From: Acidobacteriota bacterium
GTDB lineage: Bacteria > Acidobacteriota > Blastocatellia > Chloracidobacteriales > Chloracidobacteriaceae
NCBI GenBank assembly: GCA_016208495.1
Contig: JACQXX010000111.1
Span: forward strand, 5,934-69,933
Reading direction: 5' to 3'
DNA length: 64,000 bases
Below the pieces are notes generated by a model. The model was not told the DNA's origin. It saw only the letters and a list, made by a program, of their open reading frames with translations, and searched no databases. The position numbers were made by a program, and so were the translations under genes. Positions 19,413-53,171 of this stretch are shown here, in pieces; the first letter of the stretch is position 1; every line of letters starts with the position of its first letter.

Positions 19413-21149
19413 TTACTTTTCACGTTTTATCTCAATCTCAAACACAATCGGTTTTCCAGCCTCCCTGGATTCAGGCAACGCCAATCGAATGACAGACTCA
19501 TCTTCAATGGTTCGCTTGAGTTGCACCTGATTTGTCTGACAAAACTCGTCAAAAGTTTTGACTTCTCCCGCAGTCAGTGCGGTTCCAGATTCCCTGGCGA
19601 AAAACTTTGGCTCTTTCAACTGGGTTGGCGAAAGAATTATCGTGAACCGGGTTGTCGGGCTGTCATCTCGAAGCCCAATCCAATGCTCTTTTCCGGCTGG
19701 GAATTCAAATTCCTGGTTCGCCAGCAAACGATTAGTCGTCAGTCCCGTATCAATTGCCGGTTGTGACGTCAAAAACGTTGTTTGGGTTTTATCTTCCCCA
19801 GGTGCAACCAGATAGAGATATCCATCACGAACCGGAGTCAATTTAAACTTAAACACTTCGTCGGCTTTGAAAGTTATTTCATCGGTTGTTTTCCGAGTTT
19901 TTCCACCCTGATCAACTTCCAATGTCAGGGCGACGACCTCACCTCGAACATTCCCGGTTATCCCGCCACTTCCCTCAGCATTTCCCGCAATGTACCGATA
20001 GGCAAGAAACGAACCAGCAATTGCCAGTACAGCCACTACTCCGGCCCACAACAAACTGCGATTTGCCCGATGATGAACCGCAGATCCGGCTGGTGGTTGG
20101 AAAGATCCAATGATCGGTGGTGGACCTTCCGGCTGGATCGGTTGGAAATCTGAAACTGGCGGCGATTGATACCCAACTGGCGCTGGCTGAGGATGAAAGA
20201 CTGGTGATTCAATGGTTTCGGCCATTTGAGTGGCAGCCAGTGGCGGTGGCGTTTCAACTTTGAGCGCCATTCGGGTTCCGGGTAGCTGCGTAGGCCCTAC
20301 CCCACCAGGAATCAATGTTTTGGCTGACTGTTTAGCTAAAACTGGCTGTGCCGCCTCACGAAACATCTGACGCATCACTTTGGCTGAGGCCGGGCGGCGC
20401 TCCCGATCCAGGGCCATCGCCTGTTGCAAGATTCCCGAAATCTCCTGTGGAACTCCTGGGTTGAGCCGATGAACCGGAAGCATTGGATCCGGCTCGCCAT
20501 TGGCCACGGTCATCGCCCGCGTTACTGAATTGGGCGGAGATTCCCCTGAAAGCAAATGCCAGAGCGTGGCGCCAAGTGCATAGAGGTCGCTCCGGGCATC
20601 GGTGCTGATCTGATCAATTTGTTCTGGCGGCGCATAATTGACGGAATATCCAGCGACGCTGCTGCCGCCACCGCCTCGGGCCATTCCAAAATCAAGCAGG
20701 ATGATCCGACCTTCAGGAGTCAACTTTAAATTGGCGGGCTTGATGTCGCGATGAATAATCGGCGGCTGTTGAGTGTGAAGATATTCGAGCACGTCCAGAA
20801 TCTGATCCGCCCAGTCAAGCACCTGACTCAGTGGGAACGGTCCCGGCTGGCGTTCGGCCATTTGCTGCAAATCTTCGCCTGGAACATAAGCCATCACCAG
20901 AAAAACACCGTCGCCTTCGCTGAAATAGTCACTGACCTTTGGAAGTGCCGGGTGAAACAGTCCCGCCAGGAGTTTGGCTTCGCGTTCAAACGCCCGCCGT
21001 AAACGCTCGTCCTGAAACAGGGTCTCTTTGAGCGCCACCACGTTGCTGAGTCTGGTATCAGTGGCTCGATATACGGCCCCCATGCCACCTTTCCCGAGCA
21101 AGGATTCAATCCGATACCGATTTTGCAGAAGCGATTGGAGTGCAAGCAT
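19413..21149 (-). CDS. transmembrane Ser/Thr protein kinase with DUF4384 ectodomain
   Basis: A 578-residue PknB-type kinase. The glycine loop GKGGMGAVYRA is at 19-29, Lys41 binds ATP, HRDIKPAN is at 133-140 and DFG at 153-155, all intact. A proline-rich linker (280-360) leads to one membrane helix (about 365-386). The C-terminal part (400-575) resembles DUF4384 (FKLTPVRDGYLYLVAPGED) and would face the periplasm. AGGAGG lies before the ATG. It heads a minus-strand series with a DUF4384 protein below and caspase, M48 and lipase genes above. Confidence 0.92.
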   Translation of the reverse strand: MLALQSLLQNRYRIESLLGKGGMGAVYRATDTRLSNVVALKETLFQDERLRRAFEREAKLLAGLFHPALPKVSDYFSEGDGVFLVMAYVPGEDLQQMAERQPGPFPLSQVLDWADQILDVLEYLHTQQPPIIHRDIKPANLKLTPEGRIILLDFGMARGGGGSSVAGYSVNYAPPEQIDQISTDARSDLYALGATLWHLLSGESPPNSVTRAMTVANGEPDPMLPVHRLNPGVPQEISGILQQAMALDRERRPASAKVMRQMFREAAQPVLAKQSAKTLIPGGVGPTQLPGTRMALKVETPPPLAATQMAETIESPVFHPQPAPVGYQSPPVSDFQPIQPEGPPPIIGSFQPPAGSAVHHRANRSLLWAGVVAVLAIAGSFLAYRYIAGNAEGSGGITGNVRGEVVALTLEVDQGGKTRKTTDEITFKADEVFKFKLTPVRDGYLYLVAPGEDKTQTTFLTSQPAIDTGLTTNRLLANQEFEFPAGKEHWIGLRDDSPTTRFTIILSPTQLKEPKFFARESGTALTAGEVKTFDEFCQTNQVQLKRTIEDESVIRLALPESREAGKPIVFEIEIKREK

Positions 21150-21167
21150 GGTGGGACCTCCTTTTAG

Positions 21168-21322
21168 GGTTTGGGGCTGAGGGCTGAGGGCTTGGGGTAA
21201 AAACAGAAAAAGACAAAAAGGACTAAAGTGACCAAAAGGACATAAACTCGAAGACCTCGAACCCCGAACCCCAAACCCCGAACCCCGAACCCCGAACCCT
21301 GAACCCTGAACCCCGAACCCTA
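21168..21322. repeat. compound spacer: GGGCTGAGG, AAAAGGAC and GAACCCC words
   Basis: Three word families in order: GGGCTGAGGGCTGAGGGCTT, then AAAAAGGAC-type nonamers (21205-21245), then at least nine GAACCCC/GAACCCT heptamers (21256-21320) that finish as the TAG stop of the caspase gene. Confidence 0.9.
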
Positions 21323-22621
21323 CTTCACAATTGCCAGTTGCAGTCCGTCGTTATTTCCGACAGCCGCCCGTGGATGCTGCCCGGTGAGTTCAGCCGTAAT
21401 GCCTTTTTGTCGGAGCAACTGAATGTGACTCTCAACCGCTTTTGGAACTTCACCCCGGACGTACTCAAAAATTTCACCAGCGGTGACCAGGTTATCCCGA
21501 TCCACATCCGCTGCTCCTTTGAGCCCTTTCAACAGAAAATAAGTAAAGACACCATGCCCGTCCCAAACCTGGCTTTCATATGACTTTTCGTCAATGTCGC
21601 TTGAGGTCAACACCGCAATTCCTTGCGCCCCATAAAGCAGGCTTTCAAAATCCTGGTTGATCAAATTCAACCCGAAATCCCGCATACCAAAGCCACCTGC
21701 CTGTGGATCGCCAGCCAAACCGGCGCTGTGACAGGTATCAATGAAACAAACCAGCCGTTTCGCCCGCAGATCCTTGGTCAAGCGGTCACGGAGCAACGTC
21801 ATCGGGAGCGCCGACCGGGTAAAATCCTGCCCGGTGTCATAGGTCATAAAGTAGCGGGTTTTGCGGCTTCCAGGATCGGGGCCGCCATGTCCAGCCAGAA
21901 AAAATACCAGTAAATCATCTGAAGTCACCTGCTTGACCACGGTTTCAAGTGCTTGCTGGATACCGCCTAACGTGGCTGATTCATTTTCAATCAACAGAAT
22001 ATTTTCCGGTCGGAAACTTCCTCCCTGGCGACTCAGCAGAAAGTCACGAAACGCCCGTGCATCGGCATCAGCAAATTTGAGCGAATTGCCATGGAGATAG
22101 CGCGAAATCCCAATCACCAGCGCATATTTTTGACCAGTAAACTGCACGACGGAGCTGCCTGGCTTTGGTATTCCCACCCCCGACAGGCCATAGGGCGTCG
22201 AAATGACACAGGCGTTATACACTTCGCGCCCATCGGCCAGCTCGGCCAGCACTTCGATTGAATTTTTCCCTTCACGCAACAAAAACCCTGGCAATCGCCG
22301 CAAGTCAATCTTCATCAGTTTGCCCGCTGGCGTGTTGACCTTATCCAGAATCCGATTGGCTGCCTGCCCATTGATTGACAGGAAAATGCCACCATAGGTC
22401 ACCTGGTCCGCCAGCGGTTTTGGAATTAGCACTTCAAGTCGGGTCAACCGGGTATGCGGAATCGGGATTTGTGGTGGCACAAACTGGGTGGTGTTCAGTT
22501 CGGGAAACATCACCAGAAACGGCAGTTCCTGAATTTCCCCTGGTCGTATCGAAGCCACCGCGAACGGAACAACCAGCAGTAAACTCACAATGGCAATCAA
22601 CAGTCTGGTGTGGGTGCGCAT
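21320..22621 (-). CDS. exported caspase-like peptidase (C14) with EF-hand-like loop
   Basis: A 433-residue protein with a signal peptide. Residues 30-160 are a beta-rich N-terminal region. From about 165 comes the caspase p20-type fold: QKYALVIGISRY, DADARAF, His245 in FFLAGHGG and Cys297 in FIDTCHSAG. DVDRDNLVTAGE at 372-383 fits a 12-residue calcium loop, so activation may be calcium-dependent. AGGAG lies 6 nt before the ATG at 22621 (an ATG at 22627 is less well spaced). It lies between the kinase and M48 genes. Substrates are unknown; a regulatory or cell-death protease is the family-based guess. Confidence 0.88.
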   Translation of the reverse strand: MRTHTRLLIAIVSLLLVVPFAVASIRPGEIQELPFLVMFPELNTTQFVPPQIPIPHTRLTRLEVLIPKPLADQVTYGGIFLSINGQAANRILDKVNTPAGKLMKIDLRRLPGFLLREGKNSIEVLAELADGREVYNACVISTPYGLSGVGIPKPGSSVVQFTGQKYALVIGISRYLHGNSLKFADADARAFRDFLLSRQGGSFRPENILLIENESATLGGIQQALETVVKQVTSDDLLVFFLAGHGGPDPGSRKTRYFMTYDTGQDFTRSALPMTLLRDRLTKDLRAKRLVCFIDTCHSAGLAGDPQAGGFGMRDFGLNLINQDFESLLYGAQGIAVLTSSDIDEKSYESQVWDGHGVFTYFLLKGLKGAADVDRDNLVTAGEIFEYVRGEVPKAVESHIQLLRQKGITAELTGQHPRAAVGNNDGLQLAIVK

Positions 22622-22632
22622 GGCCATCTCCT

Positions 22633-22747
22633 GGACAAAAAGGACAAAAAGGACAAAAAGGACAAAAGGGACGAAAAGGACAAGCGTCGAAAACCCGGAA
22701 CCCGGAACCCGGAACCCGGAACCCGGAACCCGGAACCCGGAACCCTA
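22633..22747. repeat. compound repeat: AAAAGGACA nonamers plus AACCCGG heptamers
   Basis: Five AAAAAGGAC-type units (22635-22682), the joint GCGTCGAAAA, then seven perfect AACCCGG units and AACCCTA (22692-22747). The last unit supplies the TAG stop of the M48 gene. It has the same structure as the spacer at 21168-21322. Confidence 0.95.
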
Positions 22748-24472
22748 ATTTTTCTTCCCTGGGTTCTTTTGAACCTGTGTGTTTGGCGGCGGCTGGTTGG
22801 CAGGCGGAGTCGTCACCGGGCTGGATTTCATCACCACGGGAAAAACCTCCTGAGCCGTGACATTGCTAGTTGGCGGGACAAACCAGGCCGTTTCTCCGGC
22901 TTGACTCATGTAGTCATACAAAATGTCCATATTTGGTGGAACACTGCCGCCATTGTTGAGCTTATAGAGCCGGACATATTCTTTGATGTAGCCAACGGCT
23001 TCCGGAAACTTCGTTGGGTCACTGGTATCGAGCAAACTCAACGCCTGTTGCAGCCGAATTCCAGGCATTGACCCACGTGTTTCGTCCAGCTTGAGCGCGG
23101 TGGCAAATTCGCGCCGGGCGCGTTCTCGTTCCTCTGGTGTGCGACTGGTTAATTTCAGCACCCGTCCAAGGTAATAGTGCGCTTTGGCATCGTCAGACCG
23201 GATTCGCAACGACCACTCAAGGTTTTTGCGAGTCATATCAAACATGTCGTAGTAGAAAGCCACCACACCATTATCTCGTTTCAATTCAGCCATTAACACT
23301 TCAAATTCAGAATGGCTGCCAATCAATTTCCCCTGGCTGGAAAGTTGTCGGATCGTATTTTCGTTTTCCTTGAGCAGCAGTTTGACACCTTCATTGCGTT
23401 CATACACGTGCTGCAACGAAGACATAAACCCAAGCCCGACTCGTTGGTCAGCCAGCACGGCATTGTACAAATTGACAAAGAGTTTCGGGACTTCCTGCAC
23501 GTCAAACCCATTAGCCAGACAGTTTTGAAAAGCAAACCGGTCGGCGTCATCTTCGTCGGCAATGTTCCATTCGGTAATTCGCACATCCCGAATGGCCAGG
23601 TCGCCGATCAAATGGCCCAATCCGTAGCCGAGCGAGGCCCCTTGATAGGCACCTTGCAACCCGTCTGATTTCGCACCCAGCGCCAGTCCACCCAGCGCCA
23701 TCAAAGCGCCAATTCGCTGCCGTTTCTTTTCCTTATCTTCATTTTTTTCGGCCAGGGCAATCGGCAGCATGGATTGATAAAACCAGTGATCCATTTCAAC
23801 GTGGGCAATTTCGTGGCTCAGGATGTAGGCCAGTTGGGCTTCGTTATCGAGCATCCCGAGCAATCCGGTTGAAAGGTAGATCGTCCCAGTTGAGAGCGAG
23901 TCAGCTCGTGGGAGCGGATCTTGTAGAATCTTAAAGGCATAGAGCTTTCGGGAATTTGCCGGTACCAACCGATGACCAATTCGACTAACATAGTCCTGCA
24001 GCATCGGGTTGTCATATAAGGCATCCATCCCGCCCGAAGAAGCCTCAGCACCACTGGAACGGGCGGCAAAGTTGCCTCCTTCGCCTTCCAGGTCGCCCAT
24101 CACGCGAAGTGGTGGACGGGTATTGACCCGAAATGCCTGAAGCTGATGGGTGCGCCGCATATCGTTATAGGCCCGCACCACGTCAGATTTAAAATCCATG
24201 TCCGCATCCTCTTTGCCCTGGAGTTTTTTGAGGCCATAGTCCTTTAACTCCAGAACTTCCTTGATGTCCTTGCTGTATTCGCGAAGTTTCTTTTGCTCCT
24301 TTTTGGTTTTGTCATCCTGCGGATATGGTGCTGAAGTAGCTTTAATCTCCAGCGACAGCACAATCAAACCGGCGGCCAGGAGCAGAATCAACAACTCAAT
24401 AATGCCACGCAGCAACAGCGTTTCTTTATATCCAGGTTCTTCAAAGCGATGGGGAAGATGTATGTGTCCCAT
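22745..24472 (-). CDS. membrane-anchored M48 metalloprotease with TPR-like tail
   Basis: A 575-residue protein with one N-terminal membrane helix (about 22-42). The zinc motif HEIAH is at 220-224, within ILSHEIAHVEMDHW, and the third ligand is likely in DEDDADRFAFQ, as in Ste24/HtpX/BepA-type M48 peptidases. The part after 380 has TPR-like helices (HYYLGRVLKLTSRTPEERERARREF), as in BepA, which assists outer-membrane protein quality control. AAGGAGG precedes the ATG. The tail is proline/asparagine-rich. Confidence 0.9.
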   Translation of the reverse strand: MGHIHLPHRFEEPGYKETLLLRGIIELLILLLAAGLIVLSLEIKATSAPYPQDDKTKKEQKKLREYSKDIKEVLELKDYGLKKLQGKEDADMDFKSDVVRAYNDMRRTHQLQAFRVNTRPPLRVMGDLEGEGGNFAARSSGAEASSGGMDALYDNPMLQDYVSRIGHRLVPANSRKLYAFKILQDPLPRADSLSTGTIYLSTGLLGMLDNEAQLAYILSHEIAHVEMDHWFYQSMLPIALAEKNEDKEKKRQRIGALMALGGLALGAKSDGLQGAYQGASLGYGLGHLIGDLAIRDVRITEWNIADEDDADRFAFQNCLANGFDVQEVPKLFVNLYNAVLADQRVGLGFMSSLQHVYERNEGVKLLLKENENTIRQLSSQGKLIGSHSEFEVLMAELKRDNGVVAFYYDMFDMTRKNLEWSLRIRSDDAKAHYYLGRVLKLTSRTPEERERARREFATALKLDETRGSMPGIRLQQALSLLDTSDPTKFPEAVGYIKEYVRLYKLNNGGSVPPNMDILYDYMSQAGETAWFVPPTSNVTAQEVFPVVMKSSPVTTPPANQPPPNTQVQKNPGKKN

Positions 24473-27867: not shown

Positions 27868-28169
27868 GAGAAGAAAGTCCTTTACCGGATGAAAGGGAAT
27901 GTTGAAAGTGAAAAGGGTGTCTACACCAATAGCCATTCCCTTTTCTACCGTCCTTACCGAAAAGAAATTGATTTTTACACATTTTGTAAGCGGAGGACCG
28001 GGCTGGAGAGCCTCTCTGCCTCTCGACCCCAAAATACCTGCATCAAAGATACCAGTTGTTTCCTTAACACCTGTTTTTCCCCGCACAAAATCCAGGGAGA
28101 TCAAAGATGTGATATGGTTGGCCAAATTGCCTTTCTCTCAAGGCTAAACCCTAACCGGTACAATTGTAC
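27868..28169. promoter_or_regulatory. divergent promoter spacer with palindrome GTACAATTGTAC
   Basis: Both the M28 gene and the MoxR gene must start transcription here. A perfect 12-bp palindrome GTACAATTGTAC (28158-28169) directly abuts the MoxR ATG and replaces the expected Shine-Dalgarno; it could be an operator. I cannot assign -35/-10 boxes with confidence. Confidence 0.45.
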
Positions 28170-29342
28170 ATGAACACCAACGAACTTGAAAAAACAACGC
28201 AACAGGCAGCCGGATCGCTTCGAGCGGCTGTCACTCAAGCCAGCCAGGGTTTGATCGAACGTGAATCCCTGGTGGAGACGATTGTTCTGGCGGCAGTGGC
28301 TGGCGAACATGTCCTTGTCATCGGTCCACCTGGAACCGCGAAAAGTGAGGCTGTCCGTCGGGTTGCTCAAGCATTGGGCGGTCAGTACTTTGAATACCTG
28401 CTAGGACGATTTACAGAACCCAGTGAAATTTTTGGCCCCATTGACCTCCAAAAACTGAAATCCGGTGTGGTCGAAATCGAAACTGCGGGCATGCTGCCCG
28501 AAGCTGAAATTGCATTTCTGGATGAGATTTTCCTTGGGTCAACGGCTATTTTAAATACACTTTTAAATTTGTTGAACGAACGGGTCTTTCGACGTGGACA
28601 CACCCGAATGGCGGTTCCGCTCCGAATCTGTGTCGGCGCATCCAACCGATTGCCGGATGATGATTCGCTGGCAGCTTTTGCTGACCGGTTTTTGATTCAC
28701 ACGTTTGTGGAACCAATCCCTGACCCACGGCTTGAAGAATTACTCGAAGGCGGCTGGTCACTGGCCGGCCAGTCAGCCTTCCAGTCTCCTGGCCAGTCGG
28801 CATCGGTGGCAGACCTTGACTTACTGGCAATAGCAGCCCGGAAGTGTGAGATGGGAACAGTTCGGGGAATTCTGGCCCACGCCATTCGGCGGCTTCGACA
28901 GGCTGGGGTGCTCTTGTCTGATCGTCGGGTTGTCAAAGCACAGCGGCTGGTGGCTGCCGCCGCGGTGCTCGCTGGTCGAAATCAACCAGCGGAAAGCGAT
29001 GTCTGGCCAATTGTGCTGACCGTGCCAACGCTTGAACAACAGGCCGTCGCCCGCGAATCGCTCCGCGATCTGCTTCAACACACCCAAAATCAGGCACTGT
29101 CATCGCTGGCTGAAGAAACCTCCCAGGGACCATTGGCCAGAGCCACGCGGATTGCCCGTGCGGCAGAACACCTGCTCACCATAAAACCCACCACTCCTGA
29201 AGCACTCACCGAATGGAAATTAAAACTCGAAGGAATTGCCCGTGAAATAGATGCCTGTTTTCTCCCAGAAAAACTCCCATCAGAACTGGTTGAATTTCGT
29301 CAGAAAATTGTACTTGAAATGATGCCGAAAACGTCGGGCTGA
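28170..29342 (+). CDS. MoxR-family AAA+ ATPase
   Basis: A 390-residue ATPase. Walker A GPPGTAKS is at 52-59, Walker B IAFLDEIF at 114-121, sensor 1 is GASN, and an arginine-rich lid follows. The MoxR/RavA signature FTEPSEIFGP is present. Family members work as chaperones that insert cofactors or mature complexes, usually with a VWA partner; no VWA gene is adjacent. ATG 28170 is used (an upstream TTG is two codons earlier). The last codons, KTSG-stop, coincide with a dispersed word (ACGTCGGGCTGA) that recurs outside genes at 40488. Confidence 0.88.
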   Translation: MNTNELEKTTQQAAGSLRAAVTQASQGLIERESLVETIVLAAVAGEHVLVIGPPGTAKSEAVRRVAQALGGQYFEYLLGRFTEPSEIFGPIDLQKLKSGVVEIETAGMLPEAEIAFLDEIFLGSTAILNTLLNLLNERVFRRGHTRMAVPLRICVGASNRLPDDDSLAAFADRFLIHTFVEPIPDPRLEELLEGGWSLAGQSAFQSPGQSASVADLDLLAIAARKCEMGTVRGILAHAIRRLRQAGVLLSDRRVVKAQRLVAAAAVLAGRNQPAESDVWPIVLTVPTLEQQAVARESLRDLLQHTQNQALSSLAEETSQGPLARATRIARAAEHLLTIKPTTPEALTEWKLKLEGIAREIDACFLPEKLPSELVEFRQKIVLEMMPKTSG

Positions 29343-29492: not shown

Positions 29493-29995
29493 ACTTGGTG
29501 TACCCGTGACCAAACTTGGTGTACCCGTGCCCAATTTAGAGGTTTCAGCCAGGAATTTTGGATCAAATACTGATTTTGTCAGGCAAATCAATTCCGAGTA
29601 AATATTCAAAAAATCTCTTAATTAGATCAAATTAGAAAAATAAATAGATGCTATCTATAGCTCAATTTGAACTGCACTGGCGAAAACAACCAGAACGGAG
29701 CTCAGTGCGTTGCCTTATAAGATAAAACTTCGGTGGAAGTCAGGCTTGGTGTACCTGTAACCAGACTTGGTGTACCCGTGACCAAACTTGGTGTACCCGT
29801 GACCAGAAAGTCTAACCAACTTGGTGTACCCGTGACCAATATTTGGTGTACCCGTGACCAAACTTGGTGTACCCGTGACCAGTTTTCAAACCAGATTTAA
29901 CTATATCTTCCATCACTGGTTGTTTGACTTTTCCACAGGGAGGGCGAAAGAGCACTTGGTGTACCCGTGACCAGAACTTGGTGTACCCGTGACCA
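29493..29995 (+). other. iteron replication origin: ten 20-bp iterons
   Basis: Ten direct copies of ACTTGGTGTACCCGTGACCA start at 29493, 29514, 29744, 29765, 29786, 29819, 29841, 29862, 29954 and 29976. Six are perfect; copies at 29514, 29744 and 29841 have one to three changes. Neighbours within groups are 21 or 22 bp apart, two helical turns, as in iteron plasmids. A 210-bp gap (29534-29743) holds an AT-rich stretch (29570-29670) suited to unwinding. The array lies directly upstream of the initiator gene. Confidence 0.9.
29929..29937 (+). promoter_or_regulatory. DnaA-box-like site TTTTCCACA
   Basis: Matches the relaxed DnaA box TTWTNCACA. It sits between iterons eight and nine and is mirrored at 30036-30044. 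Confidence 0.55.
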
Positions 29996-30035
29996 GAGCC
30001 GAATCCGCAAACCTTTTATTTTCAATGGTTTATCC

Positions 30036-30044
30036 TGTGGAAAA
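30036..30044 (-). promoter_or_regulatory. DnaA-box-like site, inverted
   Basis: TGTGGAAAA, the reverse complement of the site at 29929. The pair brackets the last two iterons. Confidence 0.55.
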
Positions 30045-30094
30045 AAAACTCCTACTTTCTTAAATACTTTGTGTAAATACATGAAATACAAAAT

Positions 30095-30188
30095 ACACAC
30101 ACACACAATCCCGCCTGCGCGCGCGCGTGCCGCGCCATGCGCGCGAGGCGGTCTTGGTGTGTGCTTGAAAACTTGTGTGTGTGTGTGT
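30095..30188. repeat. nested inverted repeat: (AC)n, GC-rich stem, (TG)n
   Basis: An (AC) run at 30095-30107 faces a (TG) run at 30174-30188. Inside, CCGCCT plus GCGCGC (30111-30123) pairs with GCGCG plus AGGCGG (30140-30151). Alternating purine-pyrimidine tracts could form Z-DNA or a cruciform, or a strong mRNA leader hairpin. CTTGGTGT at 30153-30160 is a partial iteron. The initiator start is 70 nt downstream. Confidence 0.8.
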
Positions 30189-30257
30189 TTTTCTCTTTTT
30201 CAAACTTCAAACAAAAACACAGGTCCCACTTTGGCAAGCGAGGTAACCAGCCGGTTT

Positions 30258-31823
30258 ATGCTCTTCCCAGAACACCCTCTCGACGACGAAACCACAAACC
30301 TGGACGTCATTCGTCCTGAACTCAACCTCGAAAAGTGGCCGGCGCTCTGGCAGCCGATCCAGTCGAAGAACAAACAAAACAAAGTCGTCATCGAACGCGA
30401 GGTGATGCAGCTCAACAACAAGTTCCTGGCCCGCGTCGTGGCCACGGCCAACAGCGAGTATGGCCCGCTCACGACGGAGGATCAGAAGCTTTACTACGCA
30501 CTGCAAAAAATCTGGGAAGACAGTGGCCGCCAGCGCCGGATCGTGTTTTCGCGCCGACGCATTGCGACGATTTTGGGCAAACAATGGGGGTCAAAGGTAT
30601 CAAAGGCCATTAACGATTCGCTGTTCCGGCTACGGGGCACGCTCTTCGTCTGGACCGACTCGTTTTACGACAGTACCAACCAGAAAACCATCAAAACCCT
30701 GGGCACATTCAACATCCTTTCAGACCTCAAAATCGCCGAGGAATCGGTGGATGGCCACCGCACGACCGAGGAATGTTACTGCGAATTTCACGAACTGATT
30801 TACAAGAATTTGCTCAACGGATACACAAAACCTCTTTTGTTTACAACAGTTGTGAGCTTTGAGGATGGAATTGCCCAGATGCTCTACAGCCACCTGGACC
30901 TGATGCTGGCCAACAACGACCACTACGAACGCCGAACCCGTGAACTCTTTGACGATTTGCAACTCCAGGGCAACGAATACAAGTTCGTCTCACGCCGTAA
31001 ACGCACGCTGGAGCGTATTTTACCGACTTTACAAGACAAACCGACCTCACGTGGAGGCGTCCTGCGACTGGTGCTCGACAAAACCCGCGGCGGCAAGGAT
31101 TTCAAGCTCATTGTGGAGCGGGCTTACCTTCATAACCCCGAACCAGTGGGGGATCAAGCACCGATTTCCGCCAACCAAACCAATCCTGCTGCGCCCATCA
31201 TCACTGGGGACGACCCGGCTGACGGCGGGGAACCCCCCGAGTCTGCCGAACTGGTTCAAGCCAGACTGGACCTGGATCAGGAGAGCGATGACCTGGTGCG
31301 ATATTTCCTGAAAACGTTTCGCATCAACCGCAAACACCCCCGCCCAACCGAGCTGGCTGAGGCCAGGGAGTTGATTTACGAGTACCAGTTGACTCGCGAA
31401 AAAAGCCGGTGGATTGTGGATTTCAGCCTCAAGGCGTCGAAGGAAACCCGGTTTGTTCCCAAGAGTTTCAACGGGATTGTGCAGTACACCGACCAGGCTC
31501 TGGAAACCTGGCAACTGAACTTGCTCGAAGCTGAAAGCCTGCCTGTGCCCCCGGCCCCGCCGACTCCGGAGCCTGAAGACCCAATTCTGGCCGCCGAAAA
31601 GGCCGAGATCGAGGAATCTCAGCGGCTGGAAACGCTTGGCGAAGAGCTTTTTTCCCGCCTGTCCGAGGGGGAGCGCATCTCACTGGTGGCCTCCGAACTC
31701 GAAACCCTGCGCAAGTCGGAGCACTGGAAAGTCTATGCCCGGATGGAAAAAAACGTCCTCCACGAGCACATTTCGTGGCTGGTCGGTCGCAAGCTGGCGT
31801 TGCAGGAACTGGGGCGGTTGTAA
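30258..31823 (+). CDS. plasmid-type replication initiator protein
   Basis: A 521-residue soluble protein. Residues 20-280 resemble winged-helix plasmid initiators of the RepA/RPA type (YGPLTTEDQKLYYALQKIW, FSRRRIATILGKQWGSKVSKAIND, LRGTLFVWTDSFYD). A linker rich in Pro, Asp and Glu (290-325) leads to a helical C-terminal region with a second acidic, proline-rich hinge (about 425-445). The ten upstream iterons support the assignment. ATG 30258 is chosen (GAGGT 14 nt upstream), since the longer frame would translate the GC and GT repeats. Iteron binding probably also represses this gene. No parA/parB genes are in the window. Confidence 0.82.
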   Translation: MLFPEHPLDDETTNLDVIRPELNLEKWPALWQPIQSKNKQNKVVIEREVMQLNNKFLARVVATANSEYGPLTTEDQKLYYALQKIWEDSGRQRRIVFSRRRIATILGKQWGSKVSKAINDSLFRLRGTLFVWTDSFYDSTNQKTIKTLGTFNILSDLKIAEESVDGHRTTEECYCEFHELIYKNLLNGYTKPLLFTTVVSFEDGIAQMLYSHLDLMLANNDHYERRTRELFDDLQLQGNEYKFVSRRKRTLERILPTLQDKPTSRGGVLRLVLDKTRGGKDFKLIVERAYLHNPEPVGDQAPISANQTNPAAPIITGDDPADGGEPPESAELVQARLDLDQESDDLVRYFLKTFRINRKHPRPTELAEARELIYEYQLTREKSRWIVDFSLKASKETRFVPKSFNGIVQYTDQALETWQLNLLEAESLPVPPAPPTPEPEDPILAAEKAEIEESQRLETLGEELFSRLSEGERISLVASELETLRKSEHWKVYARMEKNVLHEHISWLVGRKLALQELGRL

Positions 31824-32004: not shown

Positions 32005-32436
32005 TCAATCGAAATCCGGTTTTCCAGTGCGAATTCGCTTGGTCTGGCCGCGCCTGGTTTTTTCCGAGATTCGCCGTTCCTGACTCGCTCTGGTCGGGGC
32101 GGTGGGTCGGCGTGGCCTGGGCGGTTCGAGTGCATGCAGGATCAGTTTCCGGAGTTTTTCGCGGGCGTCGTCGAGATTGCGGGCCTGATCGCGGGACAAC
32201 TGGCTGGTGATGAGCACGGTATCGCCTCCCACCAGTCGCGACCCAGCGAGGGCGGACAGGCGTTCTTTGACGCCGGTGCCCAGCACGGCACAGCCGGCCA
32301 GATCGAATCGGAGTTCAACGCAGGTCGCGGTGGTATTGACGTGTTGACCCCCTGGACCTGACGACCGAACGGCTTTCCAGGTCAGGTTTTCGGTTGGAAT
32401 CGTGATGAATTGGTTGATTTCGAGAGGTTCCGCCAT
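32005..32436 (-). CDS. arfB: alternative ribosome-rescue factor, peptidyl-tRNA hydrolase ArfB
   Basis: A 143-residue protein with the release-factor GGQ motif at 29-31 (RSSGPGGQHVN) and a basic tail (about 112-143, RPRRPTAPTRASQERRISEKTRRGQTKRIR) that enters the mRNA channel. This is the size and layout of ArfB/YaeJ, which frees ribosomes stalled without a stop codon. It converges on the initiator gene across a 181-bp spacer that lacks the usual word repeats. Confidence 0.93.
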   Translation of the reverse strand: MAEPLEINQFITIPTENLTWKAVRSSGPGGQHVNTTATCVELRFDLAGCAVLGTGVKERLSALAGSRLVGGDTVLITSQLSRDQARNLDDAREKLRKLILHALEPPRPRRPTAPTRASQERRISEKTRRGQTKRIRTGKPDFD

Positions 32437-40484: not shown

Positions 40485-40745
40485 CTGAAGACGTCGGGCT
40501 GAGAAAACCGGGGCTGAGGGCCTGGGGCTGAAGATTCGCAAGCTCAGGGCTGGTTTTCTCAGCCCAATGTCTTCCTGTTACCTGCTATCGCGGGGTTTTT
40601 CTGAAATTCAGCTCAATCGGAAAAACAAAAAGGACCTGTCATCACAGGTCCTTATGGTTTCTTTCTCACTGGCTGACTGTTCCTACCTTCTTCAGCCCGA
40701 GGATTTTTCAGCCCCAAGCCCTGAGCCCTGGTCTTTTCAGCTCCC
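40485..40745. repeat. GGGCTGAGG word arrays around the sdh terminator
   Basis: GGGCTGAAGACGTCGGGCTGA words (40482-40530) face CTCAGCCC words (40552-40565 and 40690-40745). The last copy runs into the TGA stop of sdhB. Confidence 0.8.
40617..40653 (-). terminator. intrinsic terminator of the sdhCAB operon
   Basis: On the minus strand a 10-bp perfect stem (40644-40653 and 40630-40639, loop 4 nt) is followed by T5GT5 (reverse of 40621-40631). It lies 84 bp after the sdhB stop. Confidence 0.88.
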
Positions 40746-41492
40746 GTTTTTGTCGGTCAGGCTGGCTTTGAGGTAATCCCGGTTCATGCGGGTGATAAAT
40801 TCAAAGCTGATTTCTTTTGGACAGGCGGCTTCGCATTCACGATGACTGGTACAGTGGCCAAATCCTTCACTGTCCATCTGGTCAACCATGGCTAGAACCC
40901 GTTTGTATCGTTCGGGTTGGCCTTGTGGCAAGACACCCAGGTGACCAATTTTGGCCGAAGTAAACAGCGCGGCGGAGCCATTTGGACAGGCTGCCACACA
41001 GGCACCACATCCGATGCAGGCGGCGGCGTCCATGGCCCGGTCAGCATCGGGTTTCGGGACCAGAATCGCGTTGGCGTCCGGAACAGCACCGGTTGGGACG
41101 GAAACATAGCCCCCGGCGCCGATAATCCGATCAAAAGCGCCCCGATCAACCACCAGATCCCGGAGGACGGGAAAGCCCTTTGACCGCCAGGGTTCAATAT
41201 AGACCGAATCACCATCGCGGAAGTGTCGCATATGAAGCTGGCAGGTGGTTGTTCCACGATGTCCACCGTGGGGCATTCCATTGATGACCACTCCGCACAT
41301 TCCACAAATCCCCTCGCGGCAGTCGTGGTCAAATGCGATGGGTTCTTCCCCTTTCGCGGTCAGTTCTTCGTTGACAACGTCAAGCATTTCCAGAAAGGAC
41401 ATATCCGGATTGACGTCGGGTGCATCGTATTTCGCCATCTGGCCCTTTTCGTTCGGGCCTTTTTGTCGCCAAACGTAAAGCGTCAGTTTCAT
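40737..41492 (-). CDS. sdhB: succinate dehydrogenase iron-sulfur subunit
   Basis: A 251-residue protein with cysteine sets for the [2Fe-2S] centre ([10 protein letters not shown] with [10 protein letters not shown]), the [4Fe-4S] centre ([12 protein letters not shown]) and the third cluster ([12 protein letters not shown]). It transfers electrons from SdhA to the membrane cytochrome in the TCA cycle and respiratory chain. It starts one base after the sdhA stop (TAACATG). The C-terminal stop merges with a GGGCTGA-type word. Confidence 0.95.
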
Positions 41493-41493
41493 G

Positions 41494-43407
41494 TTATTTA
41501 TAACTCCGTTGGCTAGGTTTCACATATTCAAAGACGAGGGGTTCTTTGTGCAGAATTGGGGCCTTATTTTCGCCGGCATATTCCCAGGCTGCGGCGTAGG
41601 AATATTCTTCATCATTGCGCATGGCTTCCCCTTCCTCGGTCTGGTATTCAACCCGGAAATGACCGCCACACGATTCATTGCGGTTGAGGGCATCACGGCA
41701 CAACAATTCGCCAAGCTCAATAAAGTCAGCCACGCGGCCTGCTTTTTCAAGCGACTGGTTGAGTTCTTCCCCGCTGCCGAGCACACTGACGTTTTTCCAG
41801 AATTCCTCTTTGATCTCAGGAATTTTGGCCAGCGCCTGAGTTAAACCTTTTTCGGTGCGAGCCATACCGCAATAATCCCACATGGTTTTGCCGAGTTCGC
41901 GATGGAAGGAATCAACCGTGCGTTTTCCTTTCAGATTGAGCAGCTTATTGATTTGGCCTTTGACATCGGCTTCGGTTTTTTGGAAATCGGTGTGGGATTG
42001 ATCCAGTTTATCGAGTTTGGCCTGGGCCAGGTAATTTCCAATCGTGTACGGAATAACAAAATAGCCGTCAGCCAGTCCCTGCATCAAGGCGCTGGCACCC
42101 AGCCGGTTGGCGCCGTGGTCCGAGAAGTTGGCTTCACCCAGGACAAAGAGACCTGGAATCGTGCTCATCAGGTTATAGTCAACCCACAGACCGCCCATGG
42201 CGTAATGCACCGCCGGGAAAATTCGCATCGGGACTTTGTATGGGTTTTCGCCGGTAATCCGCTCATACATATCAAACAGGTTGCCGTATTTTTCGCTGAT
42301 GACCTTTTCGCCAACCCGTTTAATCGCGTCTCCAAAATCGAGATAGACGCCGAGGCCCGTTTCACCGACACCCCGTCCCTGGTCGCACACATCTTTGGCG
42401 GCGCGTGAGGCGATATCGCGCGGCACCAGGTTTCCAAAACTTGGGTATTTGCGCTCAAGGTAGTAATCGCGTTCATTTTCCGGGATTTGATCAGGCGAGC
42501 GTTTGTCGCCTTTCTTCAGCGGCACCCAGATGCGACCATCGTTACGCAGCGACTCGCTCATCAGGGTGAGCTTTGACTGATAGTCGCCACTGACTGGAAT
42601 GCAGGTCGGGTGAATCTGGGTAAAGCAGGGATTGGCAAACGCGGCGCCTTTCTTGTGGGCGCGCCAACTCGCCGTCACGTTTGAGCCTTTGGCGTTGGTT
42701 GACAGGAAAAATACGTTCCCATATCCACCAGTGCCCAAAATGACTGCATCTCCGACGTGGGAGTCAATCTTTCCGGTGACCAGGTCGCGGGTCACAATTC
42801 CCCGCGCCACGCCGTTGACCGTTACCAGATCCAGCATTTCAGTTCGGGGAAACATTTTGACGTTTCCCAGATGAATCTGGCGCTCCAGGGCCTGATAGGC
42901 CCCAATCAGCAATTGCTGACCGGTCTGGCCACGGGCATAGAAGGTTCGCGAAACCTGGGCACCGCCAAATGACCGGTTGTCGAGCAGTCCGCCGTATTCA
43001 CGGGCAAACGGGACACCCTGGGCCACACACTGGTCAATGATATTGACGCTCACCTGGGCCAGCCGATAGACGTTGGCTTCACGGGCGCGAAAGTCTCCGC
43101 CCTTCACCGTGTCGTAAAAGAGCCGATAAATGCTGTCGCCATCGTTGCGGTAGTTTTTCGCGGCATTGATACCGCCTTGGGCCGCAATGCTATGCGCCCG
43201 GCGTGGGCTGTCCTGAAAGCAGAAGCACAAGACCTTGTAGCCCAGTTCAGCTAACGATGCCGCCGCCGCCGCACCAGCCAGGCCGGTGCCGACCACAATC
43301 AGCGTGAATTTTCGCTTATTGGCGGGATTGACCAGCTTCATGTCAAAGCGGTGCTTATCCCACTTCTGTTCAATTGGTCCGGATGGAATCTTGGAATCTA
43401 GTTTCAT
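41494..43407 (-). CDS. sdhA: succinate dehydrogenase flavoprotein subunit
   Basis: A 637-residue flavoprotein. [15 protein letters not shown] binds FAD; the His in [15 protein letters not shown] is the expected covalent FAD site; [27 protein letters not shown] contains the dicarboxylate-site residues. Length and lack of an export signal agree with the non-classical SdhA of organisms with a single b-type anchor. The ATG at 43407 lies inside the end of sdhC (38-nt overlap), so coupling is likely; a TTG at 43449 is the alternative. Confidence 0.95.
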
Positions 43408-44107
43408 GGACTTTTTGCTGGACGATTGGTTTTTGGAGCTTGCGTTCAAAGTACTCCCGGTTCAACAGGATTGCCGTCGGGATCGAGATGTTTCCGACAA
43501 TGACAACCACCGTACCGAGGGTGGCGACTGAGCGAATCAATGGGTTGTATTTCGGGTGATTCAACCCCAGTGATTGAAAAAGACTCCACGCTCCGTGGTA
43601 GAGGTGGAAGCTCAGCAGCAGCATGGCGATGATATAGGTGGCGGAAATCAACGGATTGCTAAAGCTTTCAACCACAGTGCGATAGACCTGATGATCGTGA
43701 AACGCCTCGCTATGAACCATGCCATTGGTCAGGTGCAGCAGGTGATACACGATGAAAAAGAACAGCATCGGGCCGGTCCACTTCATGGTACGCGAGGCAA
43801 AGCTGGATCGCTGTGGTTTCCACTGCTGATAGCTCACTGGACGCGCACTGGTGCTCTGGTGGGTGAGTTGCAACGCCGCCACAATATGCACCACCACCGC
43901 ACCGAGCAAGGTGGCGCGAGCGCCCCACAGCACCAGTGGATTGGATTTAAGGAGTTTGGCGTACGTGTCGAGTTGTTCGGGGCCAAGGAAAACCTGAAGG
44001 TTTCCAAGCATGTGGACAATCACAAACCCGAACCCGATCAGGCCGGTGATTGCCATCACCGCCTTCTTTCCAGTTGTCGTTCGATAAAACGCGAATAGCC
44101 GATTCAC
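43370..44107 (-). CDS. sdhC: succinate dehydrogenase cytochrome b subunit
   Basis: A 245-residue protein with five membrane helices and conserved His residues ([44 protein letters not shown]) that fit a di-heme b558-type SdhC of the three-subunit SdhCAB class. It starts with GTG at 44107, with GGAG 9 nt upstream. It is first gene of the sdhCAB operon. Confidence 0.92.
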
Positions 44108-44664
44108 GTGGGTTTTCTCCAGAAAATAAAACTTGCAGGGATGAATTCAATCGGTTTGGGTTGCAGAAAAAAGCGTGTGTTTGAGAGGGCCACCCATTGT
44201 TTATCAGATTTAAGGGGAGAATTCCACAACTAATTGATTCAGGTATCTGAGGCAGGCCAACGAGGAGGGCAACGGGAGTATGGATCCGAGGCTGACCGGG
44301 TTCAAGCTATTTTTGTGGTTTTTTGCCGGAAATTTTGATGTGAAATGACACTTTGCGTCAAAGAATGAAAAAAGGTAAGTGGCTGATTTGATTGATAGTT
44401 TATCTGTCATTGATGCAAGGCCGGTGTGAATTCAAGTGATTTCTGGTTTGTCACCGCCTGGACCTTGAGAGTACAATCCGCTCTCTTTTCCCCCTGGCCC
44501 TCTCTTCAGATTCCAACTGCTTTTAGGTGTTTAGATCGCCGGACCTGGCCGGAGACAACCACTCATTGAGGGGTGATACACCTTCAAGTTTGGTACCCCC
44601 GGCATTTTCCGCTGAAGAGAGTTCATTTGCCTGCATTCAAGATTTGAGGAGTGAAAGACAGCTC
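44108..44664. promoter_or_regulatory. 557-bp divergent spacer, sdhCAB and amt promoters
   Basis: No gene is supported. It is one of few long spacers free of the word repeats. It must contain the promoters of sdhC (minus) and the ammonium transporter (plus). I looked for a sigma-54 GG-N10-GC site, as often found at amt, and did not see a convincing one. Confidence 0.5.
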
Positions 44665-46017
44665 ATGGAATTTAAACGTGTGCTTCCATTTGGGTTATTG
44701 ATGGTTATCAGTTGTGCGGCAGCCTTTGTTCCAGCCTCCACAGCCGCAGTCAAAGGTGGGCCCATTAACACTGGTGATGTTGCCTGGATGTTGACCGCCA
44801 CCGCGTTGGTGTTATTGATGACACCAGGGCTTTCTTTTTTCTATGGAGGCATGGTTCAACGCAAGAATGTGATTTCCACCATGTTGCAAAGTTTTATTGC
44901 CATGGGATTGATCAGTATTTTGTGGGTTGTGGTGGGGTTTAGTCTGGCCTTTGGCGATAGTATCAAAGGAGTAATCGGCAATCCGTTGACCTACTTTATG
45001 TTTCGCGGAGTCACTGGGGCAACTCACCCGGATCTTTCTCCGACGATTCCTCTGATTTTATTTGCCCTCTTCCAACTCAAGTTTGCGATTATCACGCCAG
45101 CATTGATCACTGGTTCTTTTGCTGAACGGGTCAAGTTCACCAGTTATATGCTGTTTATCTGCCTGTTCACGCTCTTTATCTATACCCCGCTGGCTCACTG
45201 GACCTGGCATCCGCAAGGGTTTTTGCGACAAATGGGAGTGCTCGACTTTGCCGGAGGCTCCGTGGTCCATATGTCGGCTGGGTTTGCAGCGTTGGCTGGG
45301 GCGATGGTGCTGGGACGGCGTCAGGTTCATAAAGGCGGCGACCATGGCATGCCGGCCCATATTCCCTATGTGTTGCTCGGCACGGGAATGCTCTGGTTTG
45401 GCTGGTTTGGGTTTAATGCCGGATCGGCCCTGGCGGCTTCGGAACTGGCGGCCCAGGCATTTTTGACCACGAACACGGCTTCGGCGGCGGCCATGCTGGC
45501 CTGGATTTTCTTTGACATGCTCAAAGGGCGTGCTCCATCAGCCCTTGGCGCCTGTATCGGTGCCGTGGTTGGGCTGGTTGCCATTACCCCCGCCGCCGGT
45601 TTTGTGACGGTTGGGGCCAGTATTTTTATCGGCTCAATTTCAAGTGTAATCAGTAATGCCGCCGTTCACTGGAAGTCGAAATCAACCCTTGACGATACGC
45701 TCGATGTGTTTCCCTGCCACGGGGTCGGAGGGATTGTCGGAATGATCCTGACGGCGGTGTTTGCGGATAAAGTTGGCCTGATGTCAGGTCAGTTCACAAC
45801 ATTTCTGCATCATTTGTATGCGTTGGTGATTGTGGGTGTGTATACCTTTGGAGGGTCGTATCTGCTCTTCAAACTGACCAACGCCATTATGCCGCTTCGG
45901 GTCAGAGTTGATCAGGAAGTGATTGGCCTTGATTTGAGCCAGCATCACGAAAGTCTGGATGAAGAACAACAGCGCACCTATCAACCCACCGGGCGCGTTC
46001 TGCTGGCTGATCTGTAA
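44665..46017 (+). CDS. amt: ammonium transporter, Amt family
   Basis: A 450-residue membrane protein with a signal-like first helix followed by about eleven membrane helices. Signatures: DVAWMLTATALVLLMTPGLSFFYGGMVQRKN, DFAGGSVVHMSAGFAALAGA (first pore His) and DVFPCHGVGGIVGMILT (second pore His). It conducts ammonium/ammonia. ATG 44665 with GAGGAG upstream is chosen over the GTG at 44527. No glnK/PII gene is adjacent, which is unusual. Confidence 0.93.
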   Translation: MEFKRVLPFGLLMVISCAAAFVPASTAAVKGGPINTGDVAWMLTATALVLLMTPGLSFFYGGMVQRKNVISTMLQSFIAMGLISILWVVVGFSLAFGDSIKGVIGNPLTYFMFRGVTGATHPDLSPTIPLILFALFQLKFAIITPALITGSFAERVKFTSYMLFICLFTLFIYTPLAHWTWHPQGFLRQMGVLDFAGGSVVHMSAGFAALAGAMVLGRRQVHKGGDHGMPAHIPYVLLGTGMLWFGWFGFNAGSALAASELAAQAFLTTNTASAAAMLAWIFFDMLKGRAPSALGACIGAVVGLVAITPAAGFVTVGASIFIGSISSVISNAAVHWKSKSTLDDTLDVFPCHGVGGIVGMILTAVFADKVGLMSGQFTTFLHHLYALVIVGVYTFGGSYLLFKLTNAIMPLRVRVDQEVIGLDLSQHHESLDEEQQRTYQPTGRVLLADL

Positions 46018-51767: not shown

Positions 51768-53171
51768 TCACATATTGATCATGTGGCCAGCCAGACCATG
51801 GATGGCTTCTTTGACTGCTTCGCACAGGGTTGGGTGAGCGTGAACGTTGCGCGACATTTCCTCAACCGTCAGTTCCCACTGCTGTGCCAGGGTGAGTTCG
51901 GGGAGCAATTCGGTGACTTCCGGGCCGATTAAGTGACCACCCAGCAATTCACCGTGGGCTTTGTCGCTGATGAGTTTCACAAAGCCGATGGCGTCGTTTA
52001 AGCCGTGGGCTTTGGCATTGGCGGTGAATGGGAATTTGGCGACTTTGACGTCATACCCCTGTTCAATCGCCTGTTTTTCCGTGTAGCCAAAGCTGGCAAC
52101 TTGCGGCTGGCAGTAAGTTGCGCGAGGCATCATCACAAAATTGAGGCCCATGGTTTCCGTTCCGGTCATGTGTTCGGCGGCAATGACCCCCATCGCTTCG
52201 GCCACGTGGGCAAGCATCAATTTGGCCGTTACATCACCAATGGCATAAATGTGCGGCACATTGGTTTGCATATAGTCACTGATTTCAATGGCCCCACGGT
52301 CGGTCAGCTTCACACCGGTTTTTTCCAGGCCATAGCCTTCAACGCGTGGTTTGAATCCAATCGCCTGCATCACTTTGTCGGCTTCGAGTACTTTCTGCTG
52401 ACCTGTGCCATCGGCCACGGTGACCCGGACGTTTGAGCCAGTATCTTCAATCAGATCAACGCGAGTGCTGGTCATGATTTTGATGCCGGCGCGTTCATAA
52501 TGCTTTTTGAGTTCAGCCGAAATTTCTTCATCTTCAAGCGGCACAATCCGATCCAGGAATTCGACAATCGTTACCTGGCAGCCGTAGTTGCTCAAAACGT
52601 AGGCAAATTCGACCCCAATCGCGCCCGCCCCGGCAATAATGATGCTGCCCGGAACTTTGTCTTCAAGGATTTGCTCTTCGTAGGTCACCACGCGTTCGCT
52701 CAATTTCGAACCTGGAATCAAACGGGTCGTCGCCCCAGTGGCAATAATGCAGTTCTTGAACTTGATGGTTTCGCTTTCGCCTTTGTTGAGAGCAACTTCC
52801 AGCGTGTTGGCATCCTGAAAACTTGCCCACCCGTCGTATTCGTCAATTTTGTTCTTGCGCATCAGAAAATGGACGCCTTTCACGCGTCCATCGGCGACTT
52901 TGCGACTGCGGCGAAAGGCTTCACCATAGTCAAAACTGAGCGTCCCATCCACTTTGATTCCAAACTGGTTGGCTTTGTGCTTGAGGATATGCACCAATTC
53001 AGCATTTCTGAGCAATGCCTTTGACGGAATGCAGCCGACGTTCAAACAGACTCCGCCCCAGTATTTCTTTTCGACGATGGCTGTTTTGAGGCCGAGTTGA
53101 CTGGCGCGAATGGCTGCCACGTATCCGCCTGGACCCGCACCCAGCACGACCAGATCATATTCTTTGACCAT
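51768..53171 (-). CDS. lpdA: dihydrolipoyl dehydrogenase
   Basis: A 467-residue flavoprotein disulfide reductase. [14 protein letters not shown] binds FAD; Cys42 and Cys47 ([13 protein letters not shown]) form the redox disulfide; [10 protein letters not shown] binds NAD; His446 and Glu451 (HAHPTLCEA) form the active base pair. It is the E3 component of 2-oxoacid dehydrogenase complexes and the glycine cleavage system. GGAGAA lies before the ATG. The stop TGA merges with AGAATTGAGAATG. No E1 or E2 genes are adjacent. Confidence 0.95.

Follow-up and report, generated by a model that had tools for sequence, protein, structure and literature searches.

An iteron-type replication origin set among housekeeping genes raises the question of whether it drives a replicon of its own or is a plasmid remnant in the chromosome. 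We addressed this question for a locus in a 64-kb stretch of DNA (the window) that belongs to the 72-kb contig C111 of an 8.4 Mb Chloracidobacterium-family genome (177 contigs, 99% complete). The neighbours named in a first-pass annotation were confirmed: arfB (32005-32436, minus strand), sdhB/A/C (40737-44107, minus strand), amt (44527-46017, plus strand) and lpd (51768-53171, minus strand). Directly upstream of the origin lies a bpMoxR ATPase of the MoxR-vWA-beta-propeller systems (28164-29342). A cluster encoding a serine/threonine kinase, a caspase-domain protein (21320-22627) and an M48 peptidase occupies 19413-24472, with DUF4384 proteins nearby. Short tandem arrays whose unit is 7 bp (such as CCGGGTT or TTCAGGG) are numerous and scattered over the G000 genome (loci L034, L036, L038 and L040).

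The iteron of this origin has the 18-bp core TTGGTGTACCCGTGACCA, present in ten direct plus-strand copies that start at 29495, 29516, 29746, 29767, 29788, 29821, 29843, 29864, 29956 and 29978; the match is perfect in eight of them, with one mismatch in another and two in the remaining copy. The copies form three clusters of 2+6+2, separated by gaps of 230 and 92 bp: a distal pair (29495-29533, copy 2 with the single mismatch), a central cluster (29746-29881, steps of 21/21/33/22/21 bp, the first copy with two mismatches) and a proximal pair (29956-29995, 22 bp step). The ten in-phase iterons of the first-pass annotation are therefore right in number and direction, but the 21-22 bp phase is kept only within clusters, with one 33-bp step, and is broken across the whole array. 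A candidate DNA unwinding element, an AT-rich stretch with 18% GC in 60-bp windows, lies at 29598-29658. Pattern matching found two DnaA-box-like TTTTCCACA sites, one at 29929-29937 on the plus strand and the other, inverted relative to it, at 30036-30044 on the minus strand; they face inward around the last iteron pair, and just five such matches occur in the 64 kb. Most sister Rep-iteron loci described below are missing these boxes. Between the iterons and rep lies a large imperfect palindrome (30090-30191; RNA fold -57.2 kcal/mol, z -6.0), in which 19-nt (AC)n/(GT)n arms enclose a GC-rich inner stem with an alternating CG core; it may regulate rep, or adopt a Z-DNA or cruciform form. Promoter and terminator scans of the origin region gave a signal no higher than in shuffled sequences. 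The rep gene itself (30258-31823, plus strand) is an intact open reading frame of 521 codons. The locus thus has the features of an iteron-type replicon, namely direct repeats in helical phase by an initiator gene, together with an AT-rich region and a DnaA box, and its initial description as a complete origin of this type stands.

The iteron is specific to this array. Throughout the 8.4 Mb genome, nine sites match the iteron 19-mer with at most one mismatch, and all nine lie inside the C111 array; matches elsewhere have at least two mismatches, which equals the level of a reversed-pattern control run on the whole genome. A search for the iteron in related genomes had been proposed in the first-pass annotation; TGGTG-led relatives of it occur elsewhere in the class.

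The first-pass annotation had suggested that the initiator might represent an undescribed Rep group, and the searches agree with this. No family in Pfam, NCBIfam or PHROGs matched the protein; in Pfam it fell below the cut-off for Rep_3 (PF01051/PF21205), gave no RPA (PF10134) match and had no match of any other kind. Sequence comparison with the PDB returned chance matches only, and a search of viral contigs returned none. Most of its paralogs have weak, sub-cut-off RPA or Rep3_N scores in Pfam. An AlphaFold model (built from a three-sequence alignment, mean pLDDT 53) places the WH1-WH2 region at residues ~70-290, a helical middle domain at ~340-425 and a C-terminal helical domain at ~440-521. 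In Foldseek, residues ~42-292 of the model matched RctB domains 2-3 (E 1.6e-10) and RepE (E 3.4e-5), and all matches at E<=0.001 were iteron initiators. A second aligner (VIA) also ranked RctB and RepE first (RctB Z 10.8 over 225 residues, rmsd 9.7) and matched the model to pi with Z 7.8. Single winged-helix domains of the model align at ~2.6-3.5 A, and we read the high overall rmsd to RctB as a result of how the model positions WH1 against WH2. Because only initiators match it significantly, the protein is, at the moderate confidence of the model, an iteron-type WH1-WH2 initiator by predicted fold, albeit one outside every curated family.

Its C-terminal end has a different affinity from its DNA-binding core. 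The WH part is 45-46% identical to that of the nearest sister Reps and 17-19% identical to that of the chromid-type Reps described below, whereas the C-terminal 90 residues match the chromid-type Reps (E 1.4e-9 scaled to 100,000 sequences, 40.8 bits) and reach a best E of only 41 against the sisters. A window-type Rep from Pyrinomonadaceae MAG19_C2-C3 (L054 9938-11680), encoded downstream of parA and one further gene, has a DnaA domain I-like module at this end instead (DnaA_N, E 2.4e-5, just below the cut-off). In model bacteria DnaA domain I functions in helicase recruitment, from which we infer that the variable Rep C-terminus is a recruitment module. We also considered a DnaD-like fold for the middle domain and rejected it: the fragment on contig C51 gave a sub-cut-off DnaB_2 score (E 0.005), and a seven-sequence profile had no PDB match.

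In the source genome, seven Rep-iteron pairs are intact: six are of the window type (C111, C160, C177, C80, C36 and C40), and in the seventh, C91, the Rep is the ortholog of the Chloracidobacterium chromosome 2 initiator. Upstream of each rep gene lie 8-23 direct iterons of its own, repeated every 21-23 bp within clusters. Read in the direction of rep, the C111 iteron given above is accompanied by CTGGTGCTAATGAAGTACC on C160, CTGGTGCATTGGCGGTACC on C177, CATGGGGGAGTCTCTGGACC on C80, TGGGGTATTTGCTGGACCC on C36, TGGGGTAGGACCCGGACCC on C40 and CTATTGACCTTTGACATAA on C91. All but that of C91 begin with TGG(T/G)G and have ACC close to their end, and the division of the window-type Reps into the subclades C111/C160/C177 and C80/C36/C40 coincides with that of their iterons into two types. 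Every iteron differs by at least five mismatches (over 18-20 bp) from the best site in any other origin; mean mismatches within the seven arrays are 0-0.4. The six paralogous Reps are 33-63% identical in the DNA-binding core. A truncated window-type Rep at L038 9308-10066 (G000:C51), with no iteron array seen nearby, appears to be a decayed eighth module.

Window-type Reps are rare: they occur in five of the 162 genomes of the class, of which the source genome has seven matches (the six intact genes and the truncated one) and the remaining four a single match each, a patchy distribution that is typical of plasmids. In single-copy relatives the iterons are of a related, TGGTG-led kind but vary more from copy to copy (mean mismatches 2.75 in G097, 2.25 in OLB17 and 0.73 in MAG19). 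With these three genomes as the comparison, we hypothesize that near-uniform, distinct arrays reflect selection for specificity where many Reps coexist.

The C91 type is distributed differently. Chloracidobacterium has two chromosomes of ~2.6 and 1.0 Mb (PMC8245765), and a 2025 survey already includes the genus among chromid carriers (PMC12456017); we found no description of its origin in the papers searched. In a complete relative (G001:C2, 1,075,403 bp), the cumulative skew minimum at 735 kb adjoins a Rep-iteron locus at 744.5-747 kb (G001:C2:744487-747000; L049 4487-7000), and the skew maximum, at 210 kb, is nearly opposite. The chromid-type Rep is present in nine of ten family members, one copy each, as well as in several other families, and it occurs with CTATTGACCTTTGACATAA unchanged across three genera of the Chloracidobacterium family (L049, L039 and L140). 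In one of the relatives, G009, this Rep and the identical iteron sit at a local skew minimum. The chromid-type homologs P0007-P0009 exceed the Pfam cut-off for RPA, and chromid-type homologs also pass that for TrfA. The real chromid of the family is marked by this different Rep, with another iteron.

A GC skew switch near the origin, proposed as a check in the first-pass annotation, was found on C111. After gene-strand correction, third-position GC skew takes different values on the two sides of the origin, and none of 2000 permutations gave a difference as large. The best regression breakpoint is at contig 32-34 kb (window ~26-28 kb) and the cumulative minimum at contig 40 kb (window ~34 kb); the array, at window 29.5-30 kb, lies between them. 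With 11-kb flanks, the raw skew jump at C111 falls among the highest 2.9% of positions for the source genome. Corresponding ranks are 1.2% for C36, 5% for C80 and 11% for C91, and the signal is weak or absent at C40 (28%) and C160 (73%). Pooling the six testable loci by hand gave a Fisher p of ~0.003, a value to be read with the autocorrelation of the null positions in mind. Given the skew signals here, in G001 and in G009, it is very probable that the Rep-iteron loci of the Chloracidobacterium family are genuine origins.

The first-pass annotation also raised, from sdhCAB and lpdA, the possibility of a chromid or megaplasmid carrying core metabolism, and this argument is weak. Contig C16 encodes a second SDH, orthologous (55%) to the one on Chloracidobacterium chromosome 1, and the source genome has three Lpd-like proteins besides that of the window; a core-gene cargo of C111 is therefore unproven. 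The sdhCAB of the window is of the type present in G009 and G010. The expectation that dnaA would lie on another replicon agrees with its position on a separate contig, C56, where it is flanked by clusters of 12 and 7 DnaA-box matches, each within 500 bp, that resemble an oriC. C111 is a linear fragment in the assembly, as its ends do not overlap, and no parAB, relaxase or other plasmid backbone gene was found among the C111 genes scanned; 18 ParA-like matches occur elsewhere in the genome. Two traits of a chromid are present, a plasmid-type replication system and a composition close to the chromosome: the composition of C111 is like that of C56 and of random contigs, and an apparent tetranucleotide separation of the Rep contigs from C56 (40 kb) disappeared once random contigs and 20-kb pieces were used. 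No tRNA genes occur on ~520 kb of Rep contigs, versus four on the 200 kb of C56, all very small counts. Genes of the window have orthologs that are 74-80% identical (DNA) in genus g4. The MoxR and sdhCAB orthologs share one G009 contig, C128, which has no window-type Rep and no skew minimum at MoxR/sdhCAB, its skew trend being opposite to that of C111; for this reason the origin and the skew on C111 are probably additions of the source lineage. Synteny between the window and G009 is limited to scattered orthologs, so no empty site can be defined in G009.

We consider it probable that C111 is a fragment of a large secondary replicon, driven by this intact iteron origin and its own initiator, and that the molecule would be independent. 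This reading is the most likely one because the iterons of the seven modules are distinct enough to avoid cross-incompatibility, and at the level of sequence it is supported by the origin parts, the fold class, the uniqueness of the iteron and the strand-skew switch. That the repeats arose by chance next to a DNA-binding protein that is not an initiator is scarcely credible and already contradicted: although the protein has no curated family name, six sister loci and loci in three further genomes of the Blastocatellia show the same layout of array and Rep, and the significant fold matches of the model are to initiators only. Integration or fusion could instead have left the module in the chromosome, silent or occasionally firing. 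The absence of partition or transfer genes nearby, the ordinary composition, the g4 orthologs and the pairing of MoxR and sdhCAB on a G009 contig that is free of the window-type Rep all fit such an event, which we nevertheless regard as unlikely. A dead origin is expected to decay, as the truncated Rep on C51 has done, but here gene and array are intact, the iterons near-perfect and the skew switches at the locus; the opposite trend on the matching G009 contig further argues that this switch was not inherited from the neighbourhood.

Several modules might also reside on one or two large fused replicons, which would make the secondary replicons fewer than seven. Co-integrate plasmids can carry several Rep modules, all the contigs are fragments and the truncated Rep on C51 shows that modules do decay, so this arrangement, which is compatible with a functional window origin, is possible but doubtful; redundant origins should drift, yet the six intact arrays are near-uniform and orthogonal, and several modules have separate skew switches. 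It is quite improbable that seven orthogonal initiators share the cell with some or all of them firing on the chromosome or on a merged replicon, which would give several active origins per molecule.

Initiation at this origin would resemble that of known iteron systems. On the model of RepE, pi and RctB, monomers of Rep would bind the ten direct iterons with their pair of winged-helix domains. Binding would bend the array and open the AT-rich DNA that separates cluster 1 from cluster 2, and DnaA might assist from the two inverted TTTTCCACA sites. The helicase or another part of the replisome could then be recruited by the helical domains in the middle and at the C-terminus of Rep, and copy number may be set by Rep titration and iteron pairing. 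A close parallel is RctB/ori2 of Vibrio chromosome 2 (PMC6090056), which shares an initiator of chromid scale, larger than plasmid Reps, the best structural match for the modelled WH1-WH2 core, and direct iterons, an AT-rich region and a DnaA box upstream of the gene. Unlike the window, with its 18-20 bp iterons at 21-22 bp steps, ori2 has 12-mers, and its 39-mer or 29-mer inhibitors have no recognised counterpart here; identity to RctB in the structural alignment is 15-16%, and the C-terminal parts differ. RepE/mini-F and pi/R6K (Rep_3, PF01051) share the predicted WH1-WH2 fold, direct iterons of about two helical turns and a gene just downstream of the array, but the window Rep is longer by ~230 residues, which form two helical domains at its C-terminus, and has no Pfam match. 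Relative to the RPA (PF10134)/TrfA (PF07042) group and the chromosome-2 Rep, its C-terminal domain shows clear homology to the corresponding domain of the chromid Rep and several of its paralogs have sub-threshold RPA matches, whereas the WH domains are divergent. The Reps of MAG19_C2-C3 and Acidobacteria bacterium OLB17 (L053) are 36-39% identical to it, with one copy per genome.

An iteron origin is a known kind of element; what is notable here is the number of modules, their orthogonality and the modular initiator. Chromid-type, clade-B type and DnaA domain I-like C-terminal modules have been swapped over the same DNA-binding core, which points to replisome recruitment by this end of the protein. 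The six Reps and their own near-uniform arrays constitute a natural set of orthogonal Rep-DNA pairs, with which initiator specificity and the rules of plasmid incompatibility become directly testable. For the family, comparison of the modules gives the position of the chromosome 2 origin in Chloracidobacterium, and for the source organism the seven modules suggest that many secondary replicons co-exist in one cell.
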